In this document: in pieces, positions 4,143 to 64,000 of the stretch | Numbering within the stretch: position 1 is the stretch's first letter | How the letters are laid out: every line of letters begins with the position of its first letter | Origin: Alitta virens | Lineage: Eukaryota > Annelida > Polychaeta > Phyllodocida > Nereididae | NCBI GenBank assembly: GCA_932294295.1 | Contig: OW028575.1 | Location: 39,620,253-39,684,252 of the forward strand | Direction of reading: 5' to 3' | DNA: 64,000 bases | The notes under the pieces: model-generated | Seen by the model: the letters and a program-made list of their open reading frames with translations, nothing else | Told to the model about the DNA's origin: nothing | The model's database searches: none | Made by a program: the position numbers and the translations under genes

Positions 4143-4148
4143 CCAATA
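4143..4148. other. Empty target site (CCAATA) equivalent to Polinton B insertion
   Basis: In copy 1 of the duplicated segment the bases CCAATA occur once between sequences that flank Polinton B in copy 2. In copy 2 the same six bases occur on both sides of the element (44253-44258 and 63743-63748). This is a pre-integration site and fixes the element boundaries. Confidence 0.95.
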
Positions 4149-12345: not shown

Positions 12346-12366
12346 TCATATAGGGGGGTGCTGATG

Positions 12367-12629
12367 AGTAGTTAGAATGCTACTATAAAACGTAGCTTCT
12401 GGTGGCCCCCGACAGGCGGTGCTAGTGGTTCCTATGACGGTGGCCGCTAGGTGGCGCTTCGACGATATGTATGGATGTCATGCCTCGAATGGGTGCCCGA
12501 GGGTCTAACCCGTCCTCTTTGCATGACCGATGAACCAGTGGAACCCCGCGGGCTATAGTGTGATTACTATAGAAGATGCGGAATGCCGTGGGCTATAGTT
12601 TGATTACTGTAGAGGACGTGAGAAGTGTG
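12367..12629. repeat. Left TIR of Polinton A
   Basis: Inverted match to 38513-38775 over 263 bp with one mismatch seen. It contains GACAGGCGGTGCTAGTGG and GGCCGCTAGGTGGCGC words and two ATAG-rich inverted words near its inner end. Confidence 0.95.
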
Positions 12630-21519: not shown

Positions 21520-21856
21520 CTATATGTAGCAGAAGTAAGGCGTTAGAAGAGCCATTTCTGGAACAGCATGTTCAACATGTTCTAGCAAAATATCAATAGT
21601 CTCCAAATCCTTAACTTTTAAGGACACACTTTCATCCTTAACAGTATTAGCAGTAATCTTGCATACTACTGTGATACATCCTTCTTTAACCAGGTAGTAA
21701 AAACACCCTAGATGTACAGTTGCATCGATATCGGAATTCGATAAAGTGTGTATGTAGTACACCATATTCACGAATTGCTGTAAGGGCAATGATACTGTCA
21801 AATCCTCCTTCAGGACATCATCCTGAACAAAATGAGAACACGGTTATTACTAACAG

Positions 21857-21940
<84 letters not shown>

Positions 21941-22316
21941 GTGTGTGTATGTTATATCTTACCTGATCATCAGTCAGTTGAATCGTCACATCACCGTCTG
22001 TACACATAACGCTGAGCGTCACCGATGTATTAATGGCAAGACTTGTACGACTGCCTCCTGTGAGCTCTGGAATAGTGCTAATGACATCTCCGTAGTCTCT
22101 TTGCAAATACTTAAACAATAATGCTGTGCCTTTGTAGCTCTTCCCTACATACAGTATTTGTAACAACAGTTTTGTTTTATCGAATCGTGTGTTTTTAGAT
22201 CTGATAACAAGTAGATCAGAATCTTTAAGTAAACCTTCGCAACGTAGTATTATACATATCTCATTTGTATTAACCTTATTGGTCAATACATCTGCGTAAT
22301 CTCTTAATATCTCCAT
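21520..22316 (-). CDS. CARD-domain protein with PC4-like C-terminal part, unit 1 (two exons)
   Basis: Exon 1 (22316-21963) and exon 2 (21822-21520) join in phase 0 across GTAAGA...TTCAG, giving 218 residues. Residues 1-85 fit the six-helix pattern of a CARD death fold: MEILRDYADVL, ICIILRCEGLL, DSDLLVIRSK, KTKLLLQILYVG, TALLFKYLQRD, DVISTI. The rest has two beta-rich segments each followed by a helix (after TSVTLSVM and after FYYLVKEGCITVVC), resembling PC4-like folds. CARD domains mediate contacts in apoptosis and innate signalling, so a host-modulating role is inferred. The intron holds an (AT)n tract of about 78 bp. Polinton B has separate CARD and PC4-like ORFs. Confidence 0.65.
21858..21937. 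repeat. (AT)n microsatellite in CARD-gene intron
   Basis: Almost pure AT dinucleotides. The copy in unit 2 (29957-30043) differs in length, and this accounts for most of the length difference between units. Open frames of Tyr-Ile repeats across it are artefacts. Confidence 0.9.
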
Positions 22317-29618: not shown

Positions 29619-29970
29619 CTATATGTAGCAGAAGTAAGGCGTTAGAAGAGCCATTTCTGGAACAGCATGTTCAACATGTTCTAGCAAAATATCAATAGTC
29701 TCCAAATCCTTAACTTTTAAGGACACACTTTCATCCTTAACAGTATTAGCAGTAATCTTGCATACTGCTGTGATACATCCTTCTTTAACCAGGTAGTAAA
29801 AACACCCTAGATGTACAGTTGCATCGATATCGGAATTCGATAAAGTGTGTATGTAGTACACCATATTCACGAATTGCTGTAAGGGCAATGATACTGTCAA
29901 ATCCTCCTTCAGGACATCATCCTGAACAAAATGAGAACACGGTTATTACTAACAGATATATATATATATG

Positions 29971-30047
<77 letters not shown>

Positions 30048-30423
30048 GTGTGTGTATGTTATATCTTACCTGATCATCAGTCAGTTGAATCGTCACATCA
30101 CCGTCTGTACACATAACGCTGAGCGTCACCGATGTATTAATGGCAAGACTTGTACGACTGCCTCCTGTGAGCTCTGGAATAGTGCTAACGACATCTCCGT
30201 AGTCTCTTTGCAAATACTTAAACAATAATGCTGTGCCTTTGTAGCTCTTCCCTACATACAGTATTTGTAACAACAGTTTTGTTTTATCGAATCGTGTGTT
30301 TTTAGATCTGATAACAAGTAGATCAGAATCTTTAAGTAAACCTTCGCAACGTAGTATTATACATATCTCATTTGTATTAACCTTATTGGTCAATACATCT
30401 GCGTAATCTCTTAATATCTCCAT
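29619..30423 (-). CDS. CARD-domain protein with PC4-like C-terminal part, unit 2
   Basis: Exon 1 30423-30070 and exon 2 29921-29619, phase 0. Two substitutions from unit 1 are visible in the coding part (Ile to Val after YGDV, Val to Ala in GCITAVC); the intron AT tract is longer. Confidence 0.65.
29957..30043. repeat. (AT)n microsatellite in CARD-gene intron, unit 2
   Basis: Same tract as in unit 1 but longer and with an additional GT interruption. Confidence 0.9.
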
Positions 30424-38512: not shown

Positions 38513-38775
38513 CACACTTCTCACGTCCTCTACAGTAATCAAACTATAGCCCACGGCATTCCGCATCTTCTATAGTAATCACACTATAGCCCGCGGGGTT
38601 CCACTGGTTCATCGGTCATGCAAAGAGGACGGGTTAGACCCTCGGGCACCCATTCGAGGCATGACATCCATACATATCGTCGAAGCGCCACCTAGCGGCC
38701 ACCGTCATAGGTACCACTAGCACCGCCTGTCGGGGGCCACCAGAAGCTACGTTTTATAGTAGCATTCTAACTACT
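38513..38775. repeat. Right TIR of Polinton A
   Basis: Inverse complement of 12367-12629, ending CTAACTACT, followed by target duplication CTGATG. Confidence 0.95.
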
Positions 38776-38858
38776 CTGATGTTCTAGACTGTCCATACCA
38801 ATAAATCCCCTTCTCATCGTAGAGCTACTACAGATTGAAATATTAAGATGATCCTCAC

Positions 38859-42571: not shown

Positions 42572-44258
42572 ATGTTTTGATGCACTGGATAAAGGAATAA
42601 AGAAAGAACTGAATGCAATTGGAAATGCTTTGTGATATTACTTGAAAGAATGAGATGATGCAAGTGTAAAAATTAAAACACATACTAACAAATAAAACTC
42701 ACATTTATGTTTGTTTTATTATATTATATACTAATAAATTTGAAACCTATTTAGATTAAAATCTAAATCTAAATACAATTCAAATGTGCTGCTGTTGGAA
42801 TTACCATATTGTATAGGCTAAGATGACCAGGTACCAGTGTGCCAAGTATAGCCGACTAAATTATATAAAATGTTGCTATGTCATTGAATTGTTTTTTTTT
42901 TTAAATTGGACATTGAGTGAATGCAGTGCTTTGAATAAAATTGCAGAAAAAAAGTGTTTTATTTTAAAAGGGCTCGATACTGCAAACAAGTAGGTGTAAA
43001 TCGACTAGCATTCGATGGTTTAATGGCACACGTACCTCTCCCGCCGGGTTATGACACCCACATGCACAATGGTTAACCCGACGTGTGACATGACCTAGAT
43101 AGATCAGAGGTCTAAACAAACAACACCTTTTTTATATTATATAAAAGACGCGAAACGCAATATTAAGATTTAGTTTTAAATGTATTTTAATAAAAAAAAA
43201 TAGGTACACAATAATTTCAAACTTACCAATATGATCACAAGGAAGTTAACCAGGACGACAGCATATATCAAAGAGATGAATGTAGCTTTTTCTGTCTGGC
43301 GTAGCTGACCAAGACATGTGGTCAGTATCTTCACCTTCGCCATACTTTTGCAAATCGTGCTGAAACCCAAACTTCTAGCTATCTTTCATAGTTGGCTGTG
43401 CAACGCAATAGCAAAACATTTGAAGCATGTAAAGTATATAGTTGAATATAGTTATAATGAGGAAGTCCTGTTAGGTCTATGTGTTCAACTCTCAAAGGTC
43501 ACCGTGGCTGGGTGATTTTGTGATCAACAAAAAAAAAAATCAGTTTTGAATGAGTGAAATGAACAACCGCTTATGCTACGCATTAATAGAGCAAACAGGT
43601 TTCCTGCACTTAACTGTCGGAGATAGGCACTAGAGCATTCAGAAGAGTAACAGCCTAACTTAATGTAGTAATGCATATGCTTGTAGTTTGAAAGATACAC
43701 ATTGGACCTTTTTTTACCCTCAGTGAACGAAGTTCAAAATAACTTTCTGTAATCATCAATGTTCGTCTGACCAGGGGCTCTCCACTGGCTGGATCAGCTT
43801 GTGACTTCCTATTCTGGTGCCCTTTTGGATCTATACGTTTTGGTATGTGTAGAATGTGAATTTGGATGAGCTTGTGAAGAAACATCTGATATACATTTTT
43901 ATGTTTATCTGCCAGCCCAAAACTAAAGTTACCATATGCCAGCCATCCTTAGGATTTCAACTGCCAGCGGCAAAATTTTTGCAAGCTCCACTGTATTTTT
44001 CTGCCAGCTGGCAGTAATTAGCAACCATCAAGTTTAGAAAATTCTACAAGCAGCAATAAGTTGAAAAATATTCCAGGTTATGACTTAATTACATAATAAT
44101 GAACAGTATGTAATACAGAGGCTACAGAGGCCCGATCCTAGGGCAACGCAAGCAAAGCAGATGCGTTGGTGCACTGCACCTGAACAGGCCCTACATATTG
44201 ATGCCTAAAAAAAAAGGAAAGAGAAGGTCTTGAAACATAATCCCTGCAAACACCAATA
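42572..44258. repeat. Duplicated host segment, copy 2 left part
   Basis: Matches 2462-4148 without net length change and with few substitutions; it ends at the target duplication CCAATA and resumes at 63743. Confidence 0.95.
43227..43343 (-). CDS. Predicted first coding exon of host STELLO/DUF288-like gene
   Basis: 39 codons from the first ATG to donor ATTG/GTAAGT, phase 0, with a hydrophobic anchor (FISLIYAVVLVNFLVIIL). Exons at 39362-39525 and 38859-38970 follow on the same strand with compatible phases. A duplicate exon lies at 3117-3233. Polinton B is inserted about 0.9 kb upstream of this ATG, in the likely promoter region. Confidence 0.5.
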
Positions 44259-44425
44259 AGTAGTATCGTTTGTTCACTCTAATACTGCTGCTTTTGAAAA
44301 ATAATTATTCGCGGTGGGTGGCGAAAACATGATCATTCGCTAATTGCTTTTGGGGTGAAATGGGGTAAATTGGGACTGCTTTTGTGTTGATTGCTTTTGG
44401 GGTGAATTGGGGTGAATTGAAAACA
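44259..44425. repeat. Left TIR of Polinton B
   Basis: The first 69 bp are identical to the inverse right end; after a short mismatch the match continues through TAATTGCTTTTGGGGTGAA and then degenerate GGGGTGAATT units. Confidence 0.95.
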
Positions 44426-44543: not shown

Positions 44544-44603
44544 CTGCCCAAGCCATAGACAGTCATTCTCTTCATAGCACTCACAAGCTCTACATATTCT
44601 GCA

Positions 44604-45563: not shown

Positions 45564-46211
45564 ATGTTCCCTTTCGAAGCAGGATGTACACACATTACAA
45601 TCGGTCAGAGCGGTTCTGGTAAGACTCAGTTTATTTATAAAGTATTAGAAAATAAAAATGTCATGTTTGGTAGCAATCCCCCGCAAAAAATACGGTATTA
45701 TTACGGAATTTGGCAGGAATTATTCGCAGAAATGTTAAAAGTTATTGACGGACTTTCATTCCATGAAGGACTACCAACAGAAGAAGAATTACTAGCTTTT
45801 ACTGATCCAAATACCCACTCACTAATAATTTTAGATGATGTTATGCATCTAGCTGCTAATAGTCAGGTTGTGGAATTGATTTTTACGAGGATATCGCACC
45901 ACAGATGTTGTAGTTGTTTTTATCTTCAACAGAATGCTTTTATCAAAGGAAAAAACCAAATAACGATTGCAATGAACACTAAATACATCGAAGTCTTTCG
46001 CTCTCCCCGCAGCTTGATGCAGTTGCAATATTTAAATAGTCAAATATTTCCTAACGATAAAAATATATTATCTAAATCTTATAAAGATATCATGGCAGAA
46101 CATAAATTTGGATATCTAGTTATTGATCTAACAGCTCATTGCATAGATAAATTAAGAATAAGATCCCAAATTTTTCCTTCAGACAACACAATCGTATATA
46201 TCAATGAATAA
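45564..46211 (+). CDS. ATP: DNA-packaging ATPase (FtsK/HerA type), Polinton B
   Basis: 215 residues. Walker A GQSGSGKT (14-21), Walker B SLIILDDVM (about 87-95), and C-terminal FPSDNTIVYINE. It aligns by eye with the Polinton A ATPase over its whole length. It would power genome packaging. It starts the main plus-strand gene cluster. Confidence 0.92.
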   Translation: MFPFEAGCTHITIGQSGSGKTQFIYKVLENKNVMFGSNPPQKIRYYYGIWQELFAEMLKVIDGLSFHEGLPTEEELLAFTDPNTHSLIILDDVMHLAANSQVVELIFTRISHHRCCSCFYLQQNAFIKGKNQITIAMNTKYIEVFRSPRSLMQLQYLNSQIFPNDKNILSKSYKDIMAEHKFGYLVIDLTAHCIDKLRIRSQIFPSDNTIVYINE

Positions 46212-46241
46212 TGTTATAATAACGTCATTCATCTGTAAGCT

Positions 46242-46493: not shown

Positions 46494-46516
46494 ATCACAA
46501 TATAAAAATAATTAAT

Positions 46517-46825: not shown

Positions 46826-47232
46826 AGAAATACGTTTTAGTATCTTATGACGAATTCCATGGTACCGCTAATATCGATAAAAAACAAAATAAAGATTTTA
46901 TACTAGCTTCTATTCCTAAAAACATTCAAACTAAAGCCAGAGCAATTTTGGAGCATATTTCTAAAGATAGAAATTTAGATTGGAATGAAAAGGGTGAATT
47001 AATTATTAATGGCGAAATAATTAACAACAGTCACATAACAGATCTTATCAAATGCGCTTTGTATTCATATAAGAATTTTAACCCCCCTGGATATGATCAA
47101 TTTAGAGAAGCTTTACAAATATCTAATTTACCACAGAGTTTACTTCAACGAGGCGAAGGTCTACCCCCTCCAGGCATTCCTAACAAAACAACAAAATCTG
47201 ACAAACAGGAATGGGTCTGGCACCAGATATAA
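46822..47232 (+). CDS. Conserved small Polinton ORF (PPG type), Polinton B
   Basis: 136 residues with NPPGYDQFREALQI in its second half, as in the Polinton A ORF of the same length. It opens with VLVSYDEFHG and has a segment IPKNIQTKARAILEHISKD. It overlaps the upstream ORF by 4 nt (ATGA) and the integrase by 22 nt. Function unknown. Confidence 0.7.
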   Translation: MKKYVLVSYDEFHGTANIDKKQNKDFILASIPKNIQTKARAILEHISKDRNLDWNEKGELIINGEIINNSHITDLIKCALYSYKNFNPPGYDQFREALQISNLPQSLLQRGEGLPPPGIPNKTTKSDKQEWVWHQI

Positions 47233-48317
47233 AGAAATATTTACAAAAGAAACATCAAGATATTTCAAAATCAGGTGCTTACTACGGAATAGATAAATTT
47301 TATAGGTCTATTATAAAAGATGGGAAGTATTCAATTTCGAGAAAAGACATTCAACTCTTTTTACAAAGCCAGGAGTACTACACACTTCAACAACAAGTTA
47401 ATAGAAAATTTAAACGTCCTAAAGTTATTGTGCCTTACAAGGGATATCAATTAGATATTGATACAGCGCATTTAACAGAATACAGGGATAAAAACGACGG
47501 TTACTCCTATATTTTAGGAGCAATAGATTGTTTCAGTAAAGAAGCACACGCAATCCCACTGAAATCTTTGAAATCTAAAGATGTCGTTCCTGAACTGAAA
47601 AATCTGATAGCAAAATTCGATAAAGTTGAGAGAATAAGGACAGATATGGGTTCAGAATTCAAATCAGCTCGTGCTCAATCACTTTTTAAACAATTAAAAA
47701 TCAAACATTTCTATGCTAAAAACACCGAAATTAAAGCTAATATAATTGAACGTTTCTTCAAGACTCTGAAAACTTTAATTTTTCGCTTCATGGTTTCAAA
47801 AAATACGCATAGATGGGTTGATGAACTGTCTAACATCGTCAAAACGTATAACCTATCATTCCATAACTCCATTAAACAATCTCCAGCATCAGTTAAAGAA
47901 GCTGATGAATACAAAATATGGAAAGAGTTGTATTATAAAAAAAGTTATGGTCCTGAACATAATTTTACATTTAATTTTAATATTCATGATACTGTAAGGA
48001 TAAGCATAATTAAAGCACCATTTGAACGTATTTTCGATGAAAAGTGGACGAGGGAATATTTCATTGTTTCTGACAGATTTTATAAAGAGAGCATACCTGT
48101 CTATGAATTAAAGGACATTCAAAACGATGCTGTAGGAGGTGTTTTTTATAATAATGAATTACAGAAAATTGATGTTAAGGATAGTGATGATACTTATATC
48201 ATAGAAAAAATTTTGAAAAAATCTAAGGGTAAAAGCTTGATTTTGTGGTTAGGATGGCCTAAAAAATTTGCTACATGGTTGAGAAATACCGAAATAAAAA
48301 ATCTACAATTAAAATAA
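47211..48317 (+). CDS. INT: Retroviral-type integrase with chromodomain, Polinton B
   Basis: 368 residues. The core acidic triad is in QLDIDTAHL, IRTDMGSEF and KANIIERFFKTLK; the chromodomain-like end is LILWLGWPKKFATW. The N-terminal region (YRSIIKDGKYSISRKDIQLF) is the usual Polinton helical segment. Intact frame; the solo relic at 41526-42417 is a relative. Confidence 0.94.
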   Translation: MGLAPDIKKYLQKKHQDISKSGAYYGIDKFYRSIIKDGKYSISRKDIQLFLQSQEYYTLQQQVNRKFKRPKVIVPYKGYQLDIDTAHLTEYRDKNDGYSYILGAIDCFSKEAHAIPLKSLKSKDVVPELKNLIAKFDKVERIRTDMGSEFKSARAQSLFKQLKIKHFYAKNTEIKANIIERFFKTLKTLIFRFMVSKNTHRWVDELSNIVKTYNLSFHNSIKQSPASVKEADEYKIWKELYYKKSYGPEHNFTFNFNIHDTVRISIIKAPFERIFDEKWTREYFIVSDRFYKESIPVYELKDIQNDAVGGVFYNNELQKIDVKDSDDTYIIEKILKKSKGKSLILWLGWPKKFATWLRNTEIKNLQLK

Positions 48318-48440
48318 AACAAAAAAATAACCATGTTATTATGCGCACCGCTAGGTGTTGTTTAGGTGAGTTGCAACTTATTTATAGCAATGCGAATTAA
48401 TCATTTATCCAGTCCTATGGATAGTTATTGAAGCGTAAAA

Positions 48441-48875
48441 ATGTCCTCTGCTATTATCTATACGTCCTGCAATGATTCTAAACATTTATATGAATCTAAT
48501 ATTCCAAGCGATTTTTTTGTTGAATTTGATAAGATCATTGAAACCAATGAAAATTCAACTGTTGAGTTACTGGAATTCAGATGTCATTTAAATGATAAAA
48601 GCAAAAAGGATATTTGCGTGATGTGTGACATTTGCGATAATTCTTTTATGTTTGGGGATAAAAAACCAATACTTAGAATGATCACATTACCAGGATTAAA
48701 AAATGTTTCTTTCATATTTAACGAACCAATCAAAATCAACATTATTGATAGATACATTAAGAAGTTTAAAATCTATTTAAGAAGTGTCGAATCGACATCT
48801 ACTTCATTAGTGTTTTTGGATAGCCAGATCACACTTCGCATTAAAGGTCATGGGCAATCAAAATCATACTTTTAG
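48441..48875 (+). CDS. mCP: Minor capsid (penton) protein, end altered by insertion
   Basis: 144 residues, beta-rich, opening with a SKHLYESNIPSDFFVEF segment comparable to the Polinton A penton protein. The transposon insertion at TTAA 48841-48844 falls in its final codons, so the last ten residues are encoded by the transposon end. The uninterrupted gene would have ended a few codons further and overlapped the next ORF. TATTTATAG lies about 55 bp upstream. Confidence 0.6.
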   Translation: MSSAIIYTSCNDSKHLYESNIPSDFFVEFDKIIETNENSTVELLEFRCHLNDKSKKDICVMCDICDNSFMFGDKKPILRMITLPGLKNVSFIFNEPIKINIIDRYIKKFKIYLRSVESTSTSLVFLDSQITLRIKGHGQSKSYF

Positions 48876-50937: not shown

Positions 50938-50943
50938 TTAATA

Positions 50944-51255: not shown

Positions 51256-51256
51256 C

Positions 51257-52570
51257 ATGGATGGACATAATGATTCATTATCATTATTCACGACTCCACC
51301 AGTCAACAAAGGTGTTATTAATTCTCAAATTGTAGAATATCTTCCTATTTCGTTAATAGGAACAGGGGGGTTTGTTGAATTTAATGTTCTTGCACAAAAT
51401 TTCATAGATTTAACTCGCTCTAAATTATATTTGAAGTGTAAAGTTGTAAGGGGAGATAATAATGATATCGCGGAAATTGAAAGCAAGGAAAAGTATGATG
51501 CAAATGGTGATGTTGTACCATCTAATTGTTTAATGGGTAGTTTATTTCAGAAAGTGGATCTCAGCATTCAACAACAAAACACAACAACAAATATTCCAGC
51601 ACACATGCATGCTTACAAATACATGATAGACACATTGCTCTCAGGATCCAAAGGAGATGCTTCCATTTTATTTATTAAAGATGATAGTGCTACGTTAAAT
51701 GCCTGCAGTAATTTTAAAGCCGTAGCAGGAAATACAGACAACGTTAAAGGTAATACTGCATTAACAAAAAGAGCGAAGTTTATAACAAAAAGCCAGGAAT
51801 TCGAACTTATTGGAGGCTTAGGTGTGGATTTTATGACACAAGAAAGATTGTTGCTACACAACGTTAATATAGGTGTGAAACTCTGGCAGACTAGACCTGA
51901 GTTTTCTCTTTTATCAGGAGAATCGGAAAAAAAATTTAACATTAAAATATTGGATGCCAAGTTGAAGTTGTGTCATGTTGTTTTGGATCCAGCAGTGAGT
52001 GTTGCTATTAGTGATGGGCTTAATTTAAAACCTATTCAGTATCCATTCGTTTCATCTAATATCAAAACTCATACAATAGCCAGTGGTGCTCAATCAGCTA
52101 CAATAAATGACGTGTTTTCAAGTAAATGCCCCGATAAACTTTTTGTATGTCTTGTTAGTTCAGAGTCAATGAATGGTTCTTTCAGTCAAAATCCGTATTT
52201 CTTTCAACATTTTGATCTTTGTGAAATCGGTTTTTACATAAATAATTCATCGTTCCCTGGAAAACCACTACAATTAAAATTCGAGGATAGCGCATTTCAA
52301 TCTCACTATATGGAAGCTTGGCAGAGATTATTAGAGATTAACCCTAATATTGATATAACTTTTGAAGAATTCCATAGAGGATATTCAATTTTCGCATTTG
52401 ACTTAACGAATAAAGAGGGAAAAGATTTGATTCCCACAACTCGAATAGGCGAAACAAAACTTGAATTAAGATTTAGCAAAGCACTTCCAAAATCGATTAC
52501 AGCAATACTATATGGAAAATTTAAATCAGTTCTAACAATTGATTCGGCAAGAAACGTCATAATACAATGA
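51257..52570 (+). CDS. MCP: Major capsid protein, double jelly-roll, Polinton B
   Basis: 437 residues. FIDLTRSKLYLKCKVV, LMGSLFQKVDLSIQQ, YFFQHFDLCEIGFYI and RFSKALPKSITAILYGKF correspond in order to blocks of the Polinton A capsid protein. Its stop overlaps the protease ATG as ATGA. Frame intact. Confidence 0.9.
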   Translation: MDGHNDSLSLFTTPPVNKGVINSQIVEYLPISLIGTGGFVEFNVLAQNFIDLTRSKLYLKCKVVRGDNNDIAEIESKEKYDANGDVVPSNCLMGSLFQKVDLSIQQQNTTTNIPAHMHAYKYMIDTLLSGSKGDASILFIKDDSATLNACSNFKAVAGNTDNVKGNTALTKRAKFITKSQEFELIGGLGVDFMTQERLLLHNVNIGVKLWQTRPEFSLLSGESEKKFNIKILDAKLKLCHVVLDPAVSVAISDGLNLKPIQYPFVSSNIKTHTIASGAQSATINDVFSSKCPDKLFVCLVSSESMNGSFSQNPYFFQHFDLCEIGFYINNSSFPGKPLQLKFEDSAFQSHYMEAWQRLLEINPNIDITFEEFHRGYSIFAFDLTNKEGKDLIPTTRIGETKLELRFSKALPKSITAILYGKFKSVLTIDSARNVIIQ

Positions 52571-53025
52571 ATTCCTTGGAGATTATAAACATTCTAAATT
52601 CTAATTGTGCTAAGTTTGGAGGTGTGTATGCCGCTAATAAACTTAGGTTAATTAAAACACCTTCCTTTAATATTTTGAACACAGATGAATTTGGAAAGGA
52701 AGGCAAACATTGGATAGCTATGTATATCAATACAGATACATGTGAGTTTTTTGATTCATTGGGACAAAATCCAAAGCATTATCATAAATACTGGCATGAT
52801 TTTCTTATTGAAAAGACAGGAAAATATTACTACAACGACGAGCAATTACAACACCCCGATTCAGATTTATGCGGAAAGTATTGCATTTACTATATTATGA
52901 TGCGAAGCAAAGGTGTAAGTTTTGAAAATGTTATTGAAATGTTGTATAGCATTGATATAGAAAAATTTATCAGAGATTTATGTCTTCCATGTTCAATCAC
53001 TGGCACGATACGAAAGTATCTGTAA
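52567..53025 (+). CDS. PRO: Adenain-like cysteine protease
   Basis: 152 residues, close to half the size range of adenovirus proteases and normal for Polintons. The catalytic set is visible: His48 (GKHWIAMY), Asp63 (FFDSLG), Gln95 (LQHPDSD) and Cys102 (CGKYC). It would mature virion proteins. No counterpart was found in Polinton A. Confidence 0.92.
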   Translation: MNSLEIINILNSNCAKFGGVYAANKLRLIKTPSFNILNTDEFGKEGKHWIAMYINTDTCEFFDSLGQNPKHYHKYWHDFLIEKTGKYYYNDEQLQHPDSDLCGKYCIYYIMMRSKGVSFENVIEMLYSIDIEKFIRDLCLPCSITGTIRKYL

Positions 53026-53859: not shown

Positions 53860-54240
53860 TCATCCCAACCAATTAACCCACATTTCCCCATTGCTTAAGT
53901 CGACTTCAGCATTAGGAATTGTATCAAACTCCAACACAACTACTCCATGGTCATCCATGAATAAGTTGATATGTGGTTCCTCTCCCAAGTCGTCAACTAA
54001 ATCCGTATCAAACGCATTTTCTATTTGTTCTGGCCGCTCCATGGTATACGCTGTTATTTCTTCAAAAGGTACTCCAAACCAATCCTTCCTGCAGTTAGGA
54101 CATTTAGGACACCTCCCTTCATTTAATGAATTCTCAATTAAATTCACTATACAAGGAAAATGCATGCATCCAGAACAACAGGGCAGTGGAGCCGAAGTTT
54201 CCTCCAAGCAAATTAAACACGGTCTTAATTCACTGAACAT
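53860..54240 (-). CDS. RING-finger protein (atypical)
   Basis: 126 residues. The N-terminal Cys/His set is C8-x2-C11, C22-x2-C25-x-H27-x2-C30 and C47-x2-C50-R-K-D-W, a RING pattern in which one usual ligand position is Asn33. The acidic C-terminal half is unlike known domains. RING proteins usually act as ubiquitin ligases; viral ones often target host proteins, so a host-interaction role is inferred. It is on the opposite strand to its neighbours. Confidence 0.75.
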   Translation of the reverse strand: MFSELRPCLICLEETSAPLPCCSGCMHFPCIVNLIENSLNEGRCPKCPNCRKDWFGVPFEEITAYTMERPEQIENAFDTDLVDDLGEEPHINLFMDDHGVVVLEFDTIPNAEVDLSNGEMWVNWLG

Positions 54241-54641
54241 GTTTCTTATTGAACGATCAACGCAAAACTAACAGTTGACTTTACAAAGTCTATAGCCAGC
54301 AAAAAAAAAAAAAACACCTGGAGTGCAGTTCAATGGAATAGAAAAGTTTCATTGTAATTTGACATGATTAATATCTACTTAAACAAGGGTGCCGTTGGTT
54401 TATAGGGGCTTAACTAATCGATATGCTCTGCTTCAAGGTGGCATAGTGCCCCTTTGTATATACGGGGTTTACAATTTCAATGTAATGGGGTTTTTGGAGA
54501 CAGGGTCAAGTGGGTCAAAAGAACTCAATGAATGGGTAAATAGGGTCATAGGTCACGTGATCGTAATTAACCAATGAGAAGTATTCTCCTTACATAAAGA
54601 TTCATCACTTTCTAGAAAGATTCATCACTCTCTTAGACATA
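54241..54641. other. Divergent spacer between RING and membrane-protein genes
   Basis: Holds a poly-A run at 54301-54314 and ATTCATCACT direct repeats near 54601 and 54621. No gene recognised; it must contain both promoters. Confidence 0.4.
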
Positions 54642-56677
54642 TTGAGAAAGATGGCCGCTTCAGTGATTTTGCTGTGTTTTGTTTTAATGCCCATGACATT
54701 CGGATACTTGATCTGCGGTTTCGAAAACCAATGCAAATGCGGAACCACCTATGTAACCTGCAAGGGATCTATTGCAGGAGTACCTGCAGAAGCTAGAAAT
54801 GGGAAAGTTTTGCTCATATCGAACTTTGATCTTTCATTGAGGCTGGTGGATATTGTGAATGATTTGGATGGCTACAGCTATATTGAAATTTACGGCACTG
54901 ATGTTTGCAAAAGAAAAGATCTACAAGCCCTAGTCAATTTGAGGGATTGCCCTTCGAAGATCGAGGAAAAACGTATCAAACACAGAGAATCCACGGAAAA
55001 CGACAAACATCAAGATAAAGAAGATCCCGAATTACATAAGGACATAAGGAAAGGAGTCATAAAATACTTCGTTGGCGTGACGATGACATCATTAGCTGTA
55101 GGTACAATGACCTGCATTACTCTTTCATGTATAATGATAGGTTTATTCAAAACTTATCAAAGAATAAACAATTTACATATGCATACGGAAAAACCACCTT
55201 GCATTATTAAATGGACCCTCTTTAACTTGAGAATTGTTTACTGGTTGCTGCGTCTCCTCTGCTGTTGCAAGGAATGTAAAAACCTAGAAACTCCTACTTT
55301 GGAAGGTAAACTATTCATTATTGTTTTCAGCATGATGTCTGTGTAAGTGTATGTATGCGTTTGTATTTTATCTTAATCGGAGTGATATATTGATATAACG
55401 AGCTATGTATTGATGATATTGCCACGCATCGCTTTATCGCTTAATTCTTGGAGGAATTAGAGCTTAATTTAAATCGTGTTAAGATAATTATCAATTATCT
55501 TAATTAGATCGCTATATTGCTATTACACGCTATTTTATGTATTAATTACATTGTTGCGCCTTAGTTTAACGCTTAATTGAAATTATGATAAAATAATTAT
55601 CAATTATATTAATCAGAGTGCTATATTGCTATAACACGCTATTTTATGTGCTAATAACATTGCTGTGCATCAGTTTAACGCTTAATTGAAAACACGATCA
55701 GATAATTATCAATAACATTTTTCACGCTCAATTGATTGTGAATGGATATTATCATATAAGTATATACCCGCTAGAATACATTTAACACAAAAACAATTCA
55801 TTTTCAATCGCTTTTCCTTGCTTTTGATTTTGTATTGCTATCATGTGACAACCTTGATGACCTTAACCCGCACGATGTCCAGTCATCATTGTATTTCGTT
55901 TTAGGATATGCTTTTGTGAAAATACTCAGCAAAATTAGCTATTATTTATAAAACGAGGGTTGTGCTTCAATGTATGAGCATGGTGTGAGTGGTATGCCTA
56001 GGGGTTGAAAGTGAAGTATCAAAGTACTTGACGTTTTTATTGCTTGCAGCTGTCCTTAGATATTTAACCTCGCATTCTAGCATCAGATCAGTTTCTGCTT
56101 AATTCTTTTTATGTGTTGCTTAATGACTTTAAGCTTTTGAAGTGTGCTATTCTAGAAATCAACCATGAACTTCACCTAAAAATATTCAATATATGTTGTA
56201 TTATGATTGTAATAGGGAGTGTATTTAAGAACGTAATTGAATTATTAAAATAAATATAATCATATATAAAAACAATATTTATATCAATGTGTTATTCCAA
56301 GACTTATATTTCTCACTCAAACAATAAGTATCAAAGTAGAAATTCAAATATTATCAAAAGTAAAATCTATTTTCTCCGTAAAATTTTATGATATAATTAA
56401 TTATATAATTATAGATTCTTGTTTAATAGTATTGATATTATTTTTTTAGTGCATTCTACTCAAACTGATCGCAGCGTTGAGGGGTTTGTTGGGACGACGT
56501 CTATTTAATAGAGCAGTCAGAGAAGCATTGGTCTTGGCGGAACAAGAAGAAAATAACCAGGAAATGCAAGAAGAATTACAACCAGAACATCAACCACCAA
56601 GAAGAATGAGAAGACCCAGAGATAATGGCCTGGATATCAACAACATACTTAACAATAGAATGAGGAGGAGGGAGTGA
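54642..56677 (+). CDS. Type I membrane protein of Polinton B (probably two exons)
   Basis: The main frame 54642-55346 has a signal peptide, a Cys-rich ectodomain (CGFENQCKCGTT, VTCKGSIAGVP, EIYGTDVCKR), a charged stalk, a membrane span near residues 145-175 and a Cys-rich tail (RLLCCCKECKN). The Cys pattern parallels the two Polinton A membrane proteins. An acceptor TTTTTTTAG before 56450 opens a frame to 56677 (GRRLFNRAVREALVLAEQEE, then Arg-rich). A donor at 55341 (GTGTAAGT) joins it in phase; GTAAAC at 55306 is an alternative that gives a shorter, different tail. The gene may also be unspliced. Confidence 0.6.
55347..56449. other. Probable intron of the membrane-protein gene
   Basis: AT-rich. 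Includes three degenerate repeats near 55430-55690 with CGCTATATTGCTAT(A/T)ACACGCT and TAATTATCAAT words. Confidence 0.45.
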
Positions 56678-56704
56678 AGACTTTTTTTTTTTTTTTTTTT
56701 TGTG

Positions 56705-56773
<69 letters not shown>

Positions 56774-57762
56774 GTTGGAATGAACGAATTGTAATTTTAA
56801 CTTGTAACTGTTAGATTCTTTATGTACATAGTCAGATTGTTCCTCTTGTATATATTTGTATATAGTTTTGCTGTGTGGAAGTTTTTTTGTGAGAATGATT
56901 TTTTTTTTTTCGATTTTTTACTTAGTAACCCTGTTTTTTATAATTGTATGAACTTGTGACTGTCAGGACCTTTATAGACTAAAGGTGCAGATCACTCATG
57001 TTGTAAATATTTGTATATATTATTGATGTGTAGAATTTTTTTGAGTTATTGTTATATCCATGCATTAGTAGTGTTTTTGAGTACTTGTTTTTATAATTGT
57101 ATGAACTTGTGACTGTCAGGACCTTTATAGATTAAAGGTGCAGATCACTCATGTTGTAAATATTTGTATATGTTATTGATGTGTAAAAAAATTTTTTTGA
57201 GTTATTGTTATATCGATGCATTAGTAGTATTTTTTGTTAATGATTGTATTGGACTTGTTGTTATTGTTATGTGCTGCGCGAATGAAGTGTGAACGTTGCA
57301 TAGTATTATATATTTTAGTACTTAATTATGTTACGTTGCGTTACGTTACTCTATAGTTACTATATATTCGTATAGAATAAACTATGATAAAAAAGTTTAT
57401 CGTTTTATAACTTTTATGTTTTTTGTTATATTATAGAAAAGTATTGTAGAACTCAGTTATGAAGGGAGTTATTGAAACTCCCTTCACATCCACCCAGACC
57501 ACGAGGAGGTGTCTACAATCCTGGGCATAATTTTGAATTATTATTATTATTTATTTTTTATTTTTTTTTTAAATGTTTTTTTATAACGCAATTCGATACG
57601 AACGATGCGAATGAAATGCATGAAAATAATGAATATTTACAGGATGAGAACACGGCAGGGATTAAGACCTTCAAACCATGTTGATGATATAATGAAATGG
57701 AAGCTTGTTAAAGCTAGAAACTTGGCGGAGTTTCAGATCCTTAAACCAAGTTGTTATGTATT
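56678..57762. repeat. Poly-T, GT microsatellite and 150-bp direct repeat
   Basis: A T run (56681-56700) is followed by (GT)n to about 56771. A unit with GTATGAACTTGTGACTGTCA and AAAGGTGCAGATCACTCATG occurs at about 56947 and 57098. The frame at 57472-57684 has no support. The stretch lies between convergent genes. Confidence 0.7.
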
Positions 57763-58017
57763 TCATATCGAATTGCAATGATCTACAATTTGTTGAGAAA
57801 ATTTGTTGAGTGATTCCATGTCACTGACTACACTTAATGACAAATTAATACATTGAATTAATTTAGTCCATTCTTCTAGAGAAAACTGGATTTTATCATA
57901 TCCAAAAAGAATGAAAGTTTTTTTGTTTTTCCTGAGAATTTCTATAATGAAGTTATCTCTAAAAGGAAATACGCAACTATCAAAATAATTAGCTATATCT
58001 AATTGTTTTTGGGTCAT
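57763..58017 (-). CDS. Small PC4-like ORF downstream of CARD ORF
   Basis: 84 residues: two predicted strands (NFIIEILRKN, KTFILFGYD) followed by IQFSLEEWTKLIQCI, which fits the end of a PC4-like fold. Its ATG overlaps the CARD stop (ATGA), suggesting translation coupled to the CARD ORF. In Polinton A the two functions appear fused in one spliced protein. The fold assignment is tentative. Confidence 0.45.
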   Translation of the reverse strand: MTQKQLDIANYFDSCVFPFRDNFIIEILRKNKKTFILFGYDKIQFSLEEWTKLIQCINLSLSVVSDMESLNKFSQQIVDHCNSI

Positions 58018-58334
58018 ATTGATAATTGTGAAAATGAGTTTTCAAAGGATATCAGTGAAGCTGCTAGATCCTCTCTGTTTGCATACTTTAGTGCTCGTAT
58101 GAGTGATTGAAAAGCTCTTGGGCCTCTCCTCTGGAGTAGCATTAAAAGATGATATGATCTTTGGGTTGGTTGAAATTCCAATATTTCACATAACATATTA
58201 CTACTTATAACACCATCTTGATATAAATACGAGGAAACTTTGTCGCATGGAAGTTCTTCAACTAAAGAAACAAAGTTTCTTCTTATACTCTCTCTCTCAG
58301 ACTTCAACATGTTCAAATGAATGCAATAGCGCAT
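58014..58334 (-). CDS. CARD-domain protein, Polinton B
   Basis: 106 residues. From the second Met (residue 9) on it follows the CARD pattern: ESIRRNFVSLVEEL, SSYLYQDGVISSNML, then YHLLMLLQRRGPRAFQSLIR, where LLxLLxRRGPxAFxxL is a hallmark of caspase-2/9-type CARDs. Such a single-domain CARD could block or recruit host death or inflammatory complexes; that role is inferred. It sits between the polymerase and the PC4-like ORF on the same strand. Confidence 0.8.
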   Translation of the reverse strand: MRYCIHLNMLKSERESIRRNFVSLVEELPCDKVSSYLYQDGVISSNMLCEILEFQPTQRSYHLLMLLQRRGPRAFQSLIRALKYANREDLAASLISFENSFSQLSI

Positions 58335-58425
58335 GTCAATGCTATTTCAAGCAATTATGTCTTCATTTAACATTTGCTCCCGTCGTGTCGCCACTGCACA
58401 GCCTAATTGAGAATACTAAGTGTCA

Positions 58426-61400
58426 CTAATCGCGCTTGAAGTCCCCGAGGGTCAATAAGTGTACTTGAGGGCACGCGTGCCAATCAAGTGTGTCTGAGTT
58501 CAGGGAGGGGAGGGGGATTCCTCCACCCCTCTCAAGGACATGACCCCCCTCCACCCCCCTCATATCATATTGGGTATGATTTGAGCAGCAGTTTCTTGGT
58601 AACCAATGTATATCATTATCTGCCTTAACTTCATTCGGAGAGCAAAACCCGTTTAATCCGTGAAGGAATCTGGATTTGTATTCTGGTTTGACTATTTCAT
58701 CTAACGATTCCCCTGATATAGACAAGTAACAACTATCGGTATCCATTTGAAGAATTTCAAAATCATCACGTGAAATGTATTTATCTAAAAAATCATAATA
58801 AAATTCCAAAACACGTAATTTTGCGTATTGAAGAATAAAGTATCCTATTTGTATTGGTAAATCGAGGTTTATACGTTTCTTCATCATTTGTATTTCAAAA
58901 TATTCAAAGTTCGGACATAATTGAAACATGGATTTGAATCTGTTATCATTTGCTTTGATGCAAGCGGTTCTTTCACTATCTACATACTCGATTTGCGTGT
59001 GATTTAGTTTGTTCATAATTGTTGATCCGTAAGCAGAGTTTCCAATTAGTTTGTTGAGATCTGCAATTATAGATAGGTCTTTATCTTTATCTCCTGTGCG
59101 TCTTGCATTACTTACTTCATCAACGAATTTTTGAAAACACTTCATTCTGTTATATTCCACTACTTGATAAACTTTGGTTACTTCCAAACCGTGTTCAAGA
59201 TACCACTTTAATAAAGGAGTTGCAAACATGATCTTTCTAGCTTTCATCCCACCGATTAATAATTTTCTCGGGGTTGTACTCATTCCAAAACGTCTAGCGT
59301 GATTTTGCATATGTTCTCCTATGTCCTCGAATTTTACTTCGCTTGTACAAAAAATTGGGGACATTTCCGAGAAGTATTCCTCCGGAGAAATATCTTTCTT
59401 GAAATCGTCGCTCCATTCTTTTGGGACGCTGATATCGACTTCTACAATACCAAAAAGGGAATTATCTTTAACTCCTTGTATGATCTCTTCCTCGCTGAGA
59501 CTTTTCTTGTTTTTTTTGAAAAAATTGAATGTTCTTTCTTCAATGAATTTTCTAAGTTCGTCAGAGTCTTTTATCATCTGTAAAAATTGACATTCCCATA
59601 TCTCTTCAACATTATAACCCAATTTTCTGTAATAATTATTTCTTTGCAATCTCCTTTTATTTCCAGCAGGAGCTTTATCTTTCCAATCTTGAGACTTCAT
59701 GTTATAAGTCAATGGACAGTTATCTGTGTGGAAATGGTAATAGCATCCGTCATATTGGAAAATAGAATTCGTTTCTGGAGAGTAACCATCCGCTAAGAAG
59801 CGTCCATCTCTTTTCTCTTTCCCTTCATTTCTCTTGTGGAATATTTTAATATTTCTTTTCTGACTTATATAATCCATCCAGTGAAACATGTTATCGTATT
59901 TATCTCTCAAATCAGGTTTAAATTGCGATTCTCTATCTCTTTTAACAAACGATCCAACAGGAAACTCTTGATCGAATGCCCATAAATAGAGGGCATTTGC
60001 ATCATAGCCCACAATCTTCTTACAAAGTTTTGTTTTATTCCTAATTTTACTAATATCACGCTCAGAATATCTAGAAAACACGATGGAAGGCCCTCCAACT
60101 AAATTAGATAGCAGTGAGAAGTAAATTTCGGAGCTATTTTTGTCAAACAAAGAAAAGTATGCACCTTCATCCCTAGCACTCTTAAAAACAAGTTGTCTAG
60201 CAATACCTGGCACAGAAATAGTTGATTTAAAAATATCGATGTTTTTATCTTGGTAGAATTTTTGTAATTTTACTACAGCTTTTACAAATGGTGTTACATC
60301 TAGATTATTGTACCACACAAGAAAATCTTTAAAACATTTCATATCGTTTTCATACCATATTTTCTTGAGGTTATCATATTCTTCTTGAGAATCGAGTACA
60401 TTGCGACCTAAAAGAGTGGAATAGAAGGCTTCAAAGGGAGGGAGAGAAGTATGACTAAGTTTATCCACACCATCAAAAAATTCATATGGAAAATATCCTT
60501 TTTGTTCTTGTATTTTAAAAGCTTTAAGAAAAGATGAATAACTACTTCCTGGAACTAGATAATTCAAAACATCTAAAAACTTAAAATTTTCATTTGCTAA
60601 ACAACTATACAAATTATTTTTCTTTACAACAAAAACATTTTGTGATTCGTGTAAGTCAAGGTGTTTAGCAATGCTGCTTTTGATTAAATTTAAGTCGTAT
60701 TTAGAAGAATTAAATCCTAAGACAGGGATTTGCGAACAATAAACTTCAAATTTATTGATAATTGATTGAATTTTTTTTCGCATTATAGAAGTGAATGACT
60801 CTTCCTTTTCTACATCTTTTATTCCATTGTTCCATTGATTGAGAAGACAATCTAATCTCTCTATAACATAAGAACACTTTTCCTCTGTTAACGCTTGCGC
60901 ATGCGATTGAATGCATGTCATATATTCTATCATGTCTGCAACAAGTTTTTCTTTATCATCGCAAACAATGCAGTGAGCGTTAAGAAATCCTTCTACATTT
61001 GAACAAATCGATACAGAAATAGGGATATGTTGAGCTGTAGTAATAGTTTTATCAGTATTTTCATTGTTGCCCTCAATTTTCTGTAAATACGCTTCAAAGT
61101 CAAAAACTATGAAATGATCATAAAACCGATGATTTTCTTCTACTGTTATGCCATATTCTTCTAATTCTTCGAATATTGAACTTTTTGCATTATAAAACCC
61201 TCCTGTGAATTTGTAAGCAGTTGATTTATTACATGTCTTTATATGTCGTATGCAGTTATATCTCTTTGTGAATAATTTATGACACGACGGGCATTCGTAT
61301 TTTTTTGAATATCGCTCCATGTTTGATATGTATGAAAGATGTTTATTGCATAAGTTTACATTCATTGTATCACTATATCTGAGAGTTGATTTACAAACGG

Positions 61401-63480
61401 GTATAGCGATGCTGTTTTCATTTAGAGAAAAAATGTTAATATTTATTTCAAAACATTTTTCAAAATCTGGTATGTGCTTGAGATCTATGCCCTTATAATG
61501 ATGTTCACCAGAATATTTTACGAATTTTTCATAATATTCTTCAACGATAGCCTCGAAATCTGCGTGTGATTTGTATGTATTGACACCATGATAATGATAC
61601 GCAAGACATCTGAATAAACATAGATTATCTCCATAGATAATATTTTTATGGAAATTTTGTTCTAACGAAATTATTGATCGTGAGTATTTTATATAATTTG
61701 GTAATGTTCCTTGACCAAGGAGGAATCCTGTGGACGTAACATAATATCGAACATTAGTTACCATAACAAATTTCCAAGCGGAATTTGGACGTGAAGTTAT
61801 AACGTATTTTGATATATCGAGAGAAAGTAAGCGCTCCTTTAATCTTTTTAAATGTTTCTTTTTAGAAATATGTAGTGGTCTTTCGAAAAGAGGCGAGTTG
61901 CTGTAAGCCTTGTAGTATCTGTAATCTTCAGTTTGTATGTTCTGAAGAATGAGTCCGAACGACATGTTTATTTTAAAAGATTGCGATTGATCATTGTAAA
62001 TTTGTTCCGCATGATTCATTAAATCATCAATGATAATGTCATTCGCTGTTGCCCAGTTATAAAATGATTGCGGCTGACCAAGTTCGTGTTTGTCATGTAT
62101 AAAGGATAAATATTTATCATAAAATGCTTTGATTTCAGGATTTTCAATTTCAACTTGAACTTTTTCTCCTGTACCTCGTTGCAAATGAACTTCTCGAATG
62201 TGTAAATTCAATTCGTGTCTTTTGGAACAAGCTGCATTACATCTGCTACACACAACATGAGAAGTTTTTTTTTTATTTTTACATATATGTTTTCCAAACG
62301 CTTTGTGCGTTTTGAACGATTTGTTGCATAGCTGGCACGTAAACTGAAGTATACATTCGTGTTTTGCTTTGTCTGCAGCTTTGACAAACACTTCCTGACA
62401 TTTTTGACATTTTAATTTACAAGGATGACAATCAAGAGCTAGCTGGTTAGTATAGCGTTTTTTACATGACAAACATCTGAACTGACCTTCGCACATTGAC
62501 TTGTGATTGTGTAAAGCTCTTTTGCTATTGAAATTACGTTTACAAGTAGAGCATTCAATTGCACTAGTAGCACAACAATGCCTATCTAGCTTTATTTGAC
62601 TTATAAAAGTCCTAGAACATTTTTCACATGGAAAACATTTGAGTGCATGCTGTATTTCCTTTTTCTTTGTATTGAATTGTTTTTTGCATTTTTCACAAGA
62701 ATTTATTTCAGGTTTTTGCTTGCGTTTGGAATATGAACATTTTTGTTCGTGTATCTTTTTTCCTTGTTTGGATTTCAATTTTTTCTTGCATATCTCGCAT
62801 GCAAAGGATGTTTGATCTGTGCACCTATGTCTTGCGAAAGCTTGTGAATTGATAAAATGTTTCTTACATTGGATACACGTCATTCCACCATCGCATGATT
62901 TTTGATGATTATCTCTCACATCCTTTCTTTTAAAGTGTTTTCCGCATGAAGAACAATCGATCGATTTGTTGAGAATGACTTTGGATAAGTTCATTGGGGT
63001 AGATTTTCGTTTTGTTTCACATTTGTGTTTTATTCCTATAAGGAATGTTTTGAAGCAATGAGAGCAACAAGTCAAACCCTGACAGTTGCTTTCATGGATT
63101 TCGCGATATCTCTTTCTGTATAAATGTTTGGCACATTTCGAACATTGAAGTTGAGATGTTAATTCCGATATTCTTTTGGATACACAACTATTTTCTGAGA
63201 GATTATTTCGGGTAACAAACTGTAGAAGTTCGTGTAGATCAGAAAAATTTTCTAGCATTTCTTGAAACATTTGTTCTGCTTCGCTATCATAGTTGGATGT
63301 TAGCTCAGATATTCTCTTTGTTACATTTACGTTTTCTGAGAGATTATTTCTGATAGCAAATTGTTGTACTTCATTTGGATCAGAAAAGTTTTCTAACATT
63401 TCTTGAAGCATGTTTTCCGCTTCTCTATCATAGCCATGCCGACTGCAACCAGCATCGATGCGTTCACTTGAGGATTCCAT
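58426..63480 (-). CDS. POLB: Protein-primed DNA polymerase B with zinc-finger array, C-terminus lost
   Basis: 1684 residues. Residues about 110-435 hold roughly ten CxxC...H/C zinc modules. An OTU-like Cys/His module follows (DNLCLFRCLA and NKHLSYIS, about 618-715), then exonuclease motifs FIVFDFEAY (about 790), LGFNSSKYDLN (about 925) and YNNLDVTPF (about 1055), then polymerase motifs GYDANALYLWA (about 1160), LIGNSAYGS (about 1480) and MDTDSCYLSI (about 1580). After HTQYDMR near 58565 the sequence becomes GC-rich and unrelated, and the frame stops at 58426, so most of the thumb that follows motif C is missing. The copy is therefore probably inactive. N-terminal residues 20-60 and 66-106 form a duplicated helical motif. 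Confidence 0.9.
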   Translation of the reverse strand: MESSSERIDAGCSRHGYDREAENMLQEMLENFSDPNEVQQFAIRNNLSENVNVTKRISELTSNYDSEAEQMFQEMLENFSDLHELLQFVTRNNLSENSCVSKRISELTSQLQCSKCAKHLYRKRYREIHESNCQGLTCCSHCFKTFLIGIKHKCETKRKSTPMNLSKVILNKSIDCSSCGKHFKRKDVRDNHQKSCDGGMTCIQCKKHFINSQAFARHRCTDQTSFACEICKKKLKSKQGKKIHEQKCSYSKRKQKPEINSCEKCKKQFNTKKKEIQHALKCFPCEKCSRTFISQIKLDRHCCATSAIECSTCKRNFNSKRALHNHKSMCEGQFRCLSCKKRYTNQLALDCHPCKLKCQKCQEVFVKAADKAKHECILQFTCQLCNKSFKTHKAFGKHICKNKKKTSHVVCSRCNAACSKRHELNLHIREVHLQRGTGEKVQVEIENPEIKAFYDKYLSFIHDKHELGQPQSFYNWATANDIIIDDLMNHAEQIYNDQSQSFKINMSFGLILQNIQTEDYRYYKAYSNSPLFERPLHISKKKHLKRLKERLLSLDISKYVITSRPNSAWKFVMVTNVRYYVTSTGFLLGQGTLPNYIKYSRSIISLEQNFHKNIIYGDNLCLFRCLAYHYHGVNTYKSHADFEAIVEEYYEKFVKYSGEHHYKGIDLKHIPDFEKCFEININIFSLNENSIAIPVCKSTLRYSDTMNVNLCNKHLSYISNMERYSKKYECPSCHKLFTKRYNCIRHIKTCNKSTAYKFTGGFYNAKSSIFEELEEYGITVEENHRFYDHFIVFDFEAYLQKIEGNNENTDKTITTAQHIPISVSICSNVEGFLNAHCIVCDDKEKLVADMIEYMTCIQSHAQALTEEKCSYVIERLDCLLNQWNNGIKDVEKEESFTSIMRKKIQSIINKFEVYCSQIPVLGFNSSKYDLNLIKSSIAKHLDLHESQNVFVVKKNNLYSCLANENFKFLDVLNYLVPGSSYSSFLKAFKIQEQKGYFPYEFFDGVDKLSHTSLPPFEAFYSTLLGRNVLDSQEEYDNLKKIWYENDMKCFKDFLVWYNNLDVTPFVKAVVKLQKFYQDKNIDIFKSTISVPGIARQLVFKSARDEGAYFSLFDKNSSEIYFSLLSNLVGGPSIVFSRYSERDISKIRNKTKLCKKIVGYDANALYLWAFDQEFPVGSFVKRDRESQFKPDLRDKYDNMFHWMDYISQKRNIKIFHKRNEGKEKRDGRFLADGYSPETNSIFQYDGCYYHFHTDNCPLTYNMKSQDWKDKAPAGNKRRLQRNNYYRKLGYNVEEIWECQFLQMIKDSDELRKFIEERTFNFFKKNKKSLSEEEIIQGVKDNSLFGIVEVDISVPKEWSDDFKKDISPEEYFSEMSPIFCTSEVKFEDIGEHMQNHARRFGMSTTPRKLLIGGMKARKIMFATPLLKWYLEHGLEVTKVYQVVEYNRMKCFQKFVDEVSNARRTGDKDKDLSIIADLNKLIGNSAYGSTIMNKLNHTQIEYVDSERTACIKANDNRFKSMFQLCPNFEYFEIQMMKKRINLDLPIQIGYFILQYAKLRVLEFYYDFLDKYISRDDFEILQMDTDSCYLSISGESLDEIVKPEYKSRFLHGLNGFCSPNEVKADNDIHWLPRNCCSNHTQYDMRGVEGGHVLERGGGIPLPSLNSDTLDWHACPQVHLLTLGDFKRD

Positions 63481-63618
63481 TGCAAACTGAATAATAATTA
63501 CAAGGTATCACCCCTTTTTACACCCCTTCCTTCTGCCCGGGGTTTCACCACGATCACATTTCAACCTATTGTCATATAGAGTTTCATTTCTAACAGATTA
63601 TCTGTTTTGATTGATTAT

Positions 63619-63742
63619 CAATTCACCCCAATTCACCCCAATTCACCCCAAAAGCAATTAGCGAATGTTCGCATTTTCGCCACCCACCGCGAATAATTAT
63701 TTTTCAAAAGCAGCAGTATTAGAGTGAACAAACGATACTACT
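63619..63742. repeat. Right TIR of Polinton B
   Basis: Inverse complement of the left end, with three perfect AATTCACCCC units at its inner side (63620-63650), ending CGATACTACT before target duplication CCAATA. Confidence 0.95.
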
Positions 63743-64000
63743 CCAATAGGTTGTAACATTCAAGCCACAATATTTGACTAATGTTGTCATGATATCAAAG
63801 TGTGGACCCTAAAAAACCTGCCAGGCATGTTTTCAAGCAAAATTCACAAAAATGGTTGCCATTACATCTTGACAACATTTAATATTGCAGAACACATTGT
63901 CAAAAGGTCATCACATGGACTCCTGAAACATTTCAGCAATATTTGCAATAATATTTTCCACATATATTACCAAAATATTTGCACAACATTTAAATTATCG
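63743..64000. repeat. Duplicated host segment, copy 2 right part
   Basis: Matches 4143-4400 with offset 59600 to the end of the window; the repeat may continue outside. Confidence 0.95.

Follow-up and report, generated by a model that had tools for sequence, protein, structure and literature searches.

CARDs encoded by viruses are already known, in protein E10 of equine herpesvirus 2 (EHV2) and in iridoviruses. In HeLa cells apoptosis was inhibited by GIV-CARD, a grouper iridovirus protein of 91 amino acids that also lowered the activity of caspase-8 and caspase-9; the same source likens it to ICEBERG and to CARDs of the caspase-1 type, and describes ICEBERG, INCA and COP as bare-CARD, non-enzymatic decoys (PMC4457926). 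Adintoviruses carry anti-apoptotic genes, and a word search of the text on these genes found neither "CARD" nor "caspase"; no CARD was found described for adintoviruses. Here we analyzed a 64,000-nucleotide stretch of the genome of the annelid Alitta virens (contig OW028575.1; hereafter the window), which holds two Polintons (Mavericks), A and B, and we focused on CARD-B, a CARD-only gene of Polinton B. The open-access literature searched yielded no CARD in Polintons, an earlier mention being possible (a 2021 adintovirus paper lay outside the search), and "caspase" was not found by word search in the main texts of PMC11071296, PMC11071308 and PMC8363768.

We judge it probable, with moderate confidence, that a Polinton lineage keeps a CARD of the caspase-assembly class as a standing gene beside its polymerase gene PolB, perhaps in at least 100 copies, and fights cell death with it, CARDs having been taken up at least twice.

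CARD-B as a CARD-only gene of Polinton B

The first-pass annotation of the window had assigned a 106-residue open reading frame (ORF) with the motif LLQRRGPRAF to the CARD family. Read from its first ATG, this ORF is present, with 106 codons at 58014-58334 on the minus strand, and contains the motif. The profile search bears out the family: PF00619, the Pfam CARD model, matched CARD-B with E = 7.5e-9 and 35.9 bits against a curated cut-off of 23.9, and the best matches of the single sequence in the PDB were also CARDs, those of RAIDD (1.8e-4) and Dronc (2.6e-4). The predicted structure is a six-helix death-fold bundle (predicted local distance difference test, pLDDT, 75) that resembles the CARDs of Apaf-1 and caspase-9.

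The start of the gene required correction. An in-frame stop sits a few codons 5' of the longer ORF, the first eight codons are not conserved, and two relatives (L020 and L023; L numbers denote genomic places) carry T at the upstream M. All relatives read but L026 (17 of 18) retain the ATG at the ninth codon. Because this ATG is conserved and the codons before it vary, the gene likely occupies 58014-58310 and encodes 98 amino acids. The CARD is the sole Pfam domain above cut-off, making CARD-B a CARD-only protein. A death domain, as in the RAIDD/CRADD architecture, was not found, as the ORF stops after the CARD and the downstream ORF matches no family, and Pfam found no caspase protease of the initiator-caspase architecture within the ORF. 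Third-position GC content, compared among genes of the element only, was 0.255 for CARD-B, 0.245 for the capsid gene, 0.255 for the integrase gene and 0.275 for PolB.

Relatives, selection and descent

The genome search covered a 671-Mb assembly of 23 contigs, in which 150 of 272 candidate CARD places were scored, and all of these exceeded the cut-off. The 150 do not include the CARD of the window itself, and the true number is at least this high. At many places the ORF encodes a CARD and nothing else, is 93, 103, 108 or about 110 codons long and has a score that recurs. Among the 150 scored, 113 match one of five read types in frame length and score range (20, 20, 6, 59 and 8 places), a likeness that is not proof of membership, which was verified by reading for the sample alone. 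For this sample, 20 places were chosen by hand, mostly from the repeated classes, and 8 kb was read at each. Eighteen encode CARD-B relatives, 51-97% identical, and the remaining two (L027 and L028) have different CARD genes and no Polinton genes nearby. Since repeated classes were favored in the choice, 18 in 20 should not be taken as a rate for the whole genome.

We found PolB upstream of the CARD on the same strand in 13 of the 18 relatives, with the last matched PolB residue 0.6-2.2 kb away. On the other side of the CARD, 11 of these 13 loci have a converging gene for a membrane protein, 23-57% identical to that of Polinton B, and L018 and L019 have the protease and capsid genes. PolB is fragmented in L020, L022 and L025. 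In the 93-amino-acid CARD type (L012, L013, L014, L024 and L026), no PolB was found inside the stretches read, and the CARD is followed by an ORF that resembles a terminal ORF of Polinton A. Across the five CARD types, two of which are 92% alike, 37 of 90 positions are invariant. A longer C-terminus of P0001, one of the metagenome relatives (P0001-P0031), was rejected as a real difference, since the same DNA in L020 yields it when TGA is read as W.

We compared replacement with synonymous substitution rates (dN/dS). Between the window CARD and that of L020 there are 18 synonymous changes at 63 sites and 5 replacement changes at 231 sites, giving dN/dS of 0.06 (Fisher p = 1.5e-9); the ratios to L021 (0.06) and L023 (0.07) are not independent of this one. 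Distant pairs gave 0.14-0.19, with synonymous sites saturated. A tree of 22 CARDs, leaving out L010, L011, L016, L017, L019 and L021 because their CARDs equal or nearly equal others, grouped the ten element-B CARDs in a single clade (98/99), separate from nine CARDs that we presume to belong to the host, given that their stretches yielded no Polinton gene. The presumed host CARDs do not all fall on one side, the deep forks are weak and the branch of L027 is very long. The three groups seen among the CARDs recurred with a 271-residue piece of PolB: the window with L020, L021 and L023; L015, L016, L017 and L025; and L009, L010, L011, L018 and L019.

Taken together, the dN/dS ratios, the CARD clade, the matching PolB groups and the shared third-position GC content lead us to conclude from sequence comparison that CARD-B is an old resident gene of the element, inherited with PolB and under purifying selection. 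The first-pass annotation had proposed that CARD genes in Polintons mark an accessory function that recurs, not a capture by chance. For CARD-B this is strongly supported by its place after PolB in 13 of 18 relatives, its low ratios to the nearest kin and the matching groups. Absence from all related elements, which would have spoken against that proposal, is contradicted by the relatives at 18 of the 20 chosen places, and a phylogeny with presumed host CARDs set the element-B CARDs apart.

Class of the CARD and possible roles

A profile of six element CARDs, searched against the PDB, matched RAIDD (9.8e-10), Dronc (2.9e-7) and caspase-9 (1.3e-4 and weaker), followed by CED-3 (1.2e-3), Apaf-1 (0.012) and ICEBERG (0.095); no chain of NOD, MAVS, Bcl10, CARMA or CARD9 type was found at E <= 0.1. 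In the structure comparison, the CARDs of Apaf-1, NLRC4, CARMA1, CARD8, RIG-I and MAVS were all good matches, and CARD families absent from the match list are not thereby excluded. Because many CARD classes match by structure, it is sequence alone that favors the caspase-assembly class, and it points to CARD-B being a bare CARD of the initiator-caspase and adaptor class. Two basic residues with which caspase-9 binds Apaf-1 are not kept in the alignment of CARD-B, so a partner cannot be named from charges.

We propose that CARD-B would be made when the element replicates and would dock by CARD-CARD contact onto a host adaptor or initiator caspase, in a platform of the Apaf-1, RAIDD, caspase-2/9 or Dronc type. 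Having neither a protease nor an oligomerization domain, it would cap the assembly as a dominant-negative decoy; the initiator caspase would stay inactive, and the surviving cell would give the element time to replicate and form virions. GIV-CARD is the nearest tested precedent for such an action. The reading we favor, and hold to be rather probable, is that a Polinton lineage has long kept CARD-B as an accessory gene and that the protein acts as a caspase-blocking decoy; we infer its expression, its partner and that it blocks rather than triggers caspase assembly.

A possible but clearly less probable reading is that CARD-B is a signaling activator, which would nucleate a host CARD platform and drive transcription or survival with no block of caspases. 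A bare CARD can seed filaments, and the top viral structural match is E10 of EHV2, albeit with E = 0.09, a protein reportedly acting as a Bcl10-like activator in the Bcl10/NF-kB pathway. The profile matches argue against an activator, as they are caspase-assembly CARDs with no Bcl10, CARD9 or CARMA at E <= 0.1, evidence that is qualified by the presence of CARMA1 among the structural matches.

CARD-B might also act within the cycle of the element, for example as an assembly or partner domain for the adjoining small ORF, with no role in cell death, which we consider unlikely. Consistent with such a role, a small ORF lies directly 3' of the CARD gene, with an ATGA overlap of its start and the CARD stop, in the window, in L020, L021 and L023 and in the L015 type. 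In the window this ORF encodes 84 amino acids, and its relatives in L020, L021 and L023 are 73-79% identical and likewise directly 3' of the CARD (split in two in L023). The other types have a small ORF of 110-134 amino acids after the CARD (L009:3915-4319, L015:4263-4595 and L018:4295-4699), for which no Pfam family was found above cut-off. Thus the small ORF varies by type while the CARD is kept, and in known cases a CARD has another CARD as its partner; both points weigh against this role.

It is still less probable that the gene mainly serves the host, which would retain and express copies to regulate cell-death or immune pathways of its own. More than 100 copies may exist, and animals employ the CARD-only regulators ICEBERG, INCA and COP (PMC4457926). 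The CARD groups match the PolB groups, so most CARD divergence arose in replicating elements, which argues against this use. Moreover, close pairs within CARD types have few changes, and their dN/dS ratios, which range between 0 and 0.81, are not clearly low and do not demonstrate selection on settled copies after insertion. Finally, a chance capture or functionless fragment of a host CARD gene, favored solely by the many CARD genes in the genome, is already contradicted by the ratios of 0.06-0.07 to the nearest kin, the 37 invariant positions of 90 and the same place after PolB at 13 loci, and we give it almost no credence.

The two Polintons and the known CARDs

The first-pass annotation had also stated that both Polintons carry CARD genes, which is clear for CARD-B and probable for CARD-A. 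Polinton A (12366-38776) contains a near-identical direct internal duplication of 8.1 kb (17404-33560), which doubles CARD-A, the ATPase gene and several small genes. By itself CARD-A falls under the Pfam CARD cut-off (E = 0.048; 0.023 when trimmed), its best PDB match is a weak one to ICEBERG (E = 0.41) and its predicted model is poor (pLDDT 54.5). Within its family, a CARD match was found in eight of nine members, two being the window's own copies (best E = 1e-4), and other families match at most two of the nine. Judged through this family, CARD-A is probably a diverged CARD.

The two CARDs had been called differently built and low in identity, and both descriptions hold: CARD-A has a conserved C-terminal extension that CARD-B does not have, and the score of their local alignment was equalled by 99 of 1000 shuffles. 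Neither the shuffles nor profile comparison found homology between them. In the tree, the three CARD-A rows form their own clade (100/100), with a branch length of 2.7. Because the two genes differ in place and strand relative to PolB, have no detectable pairwise similarity and fall in separate starred clades, CARD-A was likely acquired separately from CARD-B. Of the two origins first suggested, independent or ancient, the evidence thus leans to the former; given the long CARD-A branch, an ancient common origin is possible. Read by eye, both elements encode small proteins that look secreted or membrane-bound and begin with a Cys-rich part (17715-18020, 19489-19962 and 54651-55346).

Polinton B spans 44259-63742 and is bounded by terminal inverted repeats (TIRs) that are 116 nt long and 95% complementary and by a 6-bp target duplication, CCAATA. 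Its flank is present twice, 40 kb apart (2462-4400; 42572-44258 with 63743-64000), with the element in one copy only; the flank copies are 99.3% and 99.6% identical on either side of the insertion. Either the flank was duplicated recently or the assembly joined two haplotypes end to end. The features of both elements are collected below.

Table 1. Features of Polintons A and B in the window
Feature	Position	Strand	Basis or remark
Empty target site of Polinton B, second flank copy	4143..4148		flank 2462-4400
Left TIR, Polinton A	12366..12629	.	
CARD-A, first copy	21810..22316	-	
CARD-A, second copy	29917..30423	-	inside 8.1-kb internal duplication
Right TIR, Polinton A	38513..38776	.	
Target-site duplication CCAATA, left	44253..44258		
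Left TIR, Polinton B	44259..44374	.	116 nt, 95%
Packaging ATPase	45564..46211	+	position and 31% identity to element A ORF; no Pfam match above cut-off
Retroviral-type integrase	47211..48317	+	PF00665, 5.5e-12, above cut-off
Putative minor capsid gene	48441..48875	+	named from position; 41% relative near major capsid protein gene in L019
Major capsid protein (double jelly-roll)	51257..52570	+	PF21738, E = 5.5e-5, below cut-off
Adenain/Ulp1-type protease	52567..53025	+	PF00770, 3.5e-4 (just below cut-off); PF02902, 4.1e-4 (at cut-off)
RING-like protein	53860..54240	- (CARD strand)	PF13639, E = 0.015, below cut-off; TRIM56 RING, E = 0.02
Putative membrane protein, Cys-rich start	54651..55346	+	converges on CARD; read from sequence
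84-aa ORF, no family found	57763..58017	-	directly 3' of CARD; start overlaps CARD stop (ATGA)
CARD-B, CARD-only gene, 98 aa	58014..58310	-	PF00619, conserved start, six-helix model, dN/dS
GC-rich stretch at expected PolB end	58400..58570	.	53% vs 33% element GC
PolB with zinc fingers	58426..63480	-	motifs by eye; C2H2 fingers in Pfam; CARD 3', same strand
Right TIR, Polinton B	63627..63742	.	116 nt, 95%
Target-site duplication CCAATA, right	63743..63748		

Polinton B is 29% identical to element A in the capsid and 30% in the integrase. The major capsid protein (MCP) has 23 homologues, 18 of them 48-62% identical, one 94% over part of its length and four 26-32%. Relatives of the RING-like protein, which is possibly a second host-directed gene, are 83% identical in L020 and 28-35% in L009 and L015-L017, and one in L023 is cut by the end of the stretch. 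For the 84-amino-acid ORF, a PC4-like identity was considered and gained no support. The region of about 2.1 kb after the putative minor capsid gene (48840-50942) has 33-nt inverted ends (97%) and is perhaps a small transposon nested in Polinton B.

The candidate protein-primed PolB of Polinton B was assigned from motifs read by eye and from a weak link of its type (tblastn 1.7e-5 in L021) to the PolB of element A, which matches PF03175; Pfam DNA_pol_B_2 did not match it. The window PolB departs from its family after the DTDS motif and has lost its end: in 10 of 12 relatives the frame extends 123-124 codons beyond the last residue shared with the window (0 in L020 and 101 in L025). Because of this loss, the copy in the window is probably unable to replicate by itself; its CARD frame is still open. 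A segment of PolB within 58429-60600 weakly matches a Vsr-type endonuclease (E = 0.26).

Viral contigs searched with CARD-B, MCP-B, a piece of PolB-B, CARD-A, MCP-A, the ATPase, the integrase and an MCP alignment yielded no confirmed relative, and no relatives were found in the prokaryote genome contigs scanned. Rfam (gathering threshold) and tRNA scans across the window found none, PHROGs and NCBIfam gave nothing convincing, and sigma-70-type promoters around the CARD numbered 3 against a shuffle mean of 3.3, in a model not apt for an animal.

A common question about the Polintons of animals is whether they are viruses or transposons. A virus that infects cells would need a gene of this kind, conserved under selection and directed against the cell-death machinery, and one small protein thus makes the question testable. 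The five types of bare CARD, two of them close, are also a natural set with which to probe partner choice of apoptosome-like CARDs in this host.

Among solved structures, the CARDs of RAIDD, Dronc and caspase-9 are nearest in sequence to CARD-B, but theirs adjoin a death domain or a protease and that of CARD-B adjoins neither. Cellular ICEBERG, INCA and COP are bare CARDs like CARD-B (PMC4457926), but they are host genes, and ICEBERG is a weak match (E = 0.095). EHV2 E10 is a viral CARD and the top match in BFVD (probability 1.00, template modeling score 0.69 on the query, E = 0.09), but it has 311 residues with a long extra part. Like CARD-B, the iridovirus CARDs are CARD-only proteins, about 90-98 residues long, encoded by a virus or virus-like element with double-stranded DNA, and those of cod iridovirus and lymphocystis disease virus (LCDV) match CARD-B by structure alone (E = 0.12-0.16, probability 1.00; none at E <= 0.001). 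Iridoviruses belong to another virus class, and GIV-CARD is described as ICEBERG- and caspase-1-like, whereas CARD-B is nearest to RAIDD, Dronc and caspase-9. If our reading is true, a family of virus-like transposons, besides the large DNA viruses, uses bare CARDs against host cell death.
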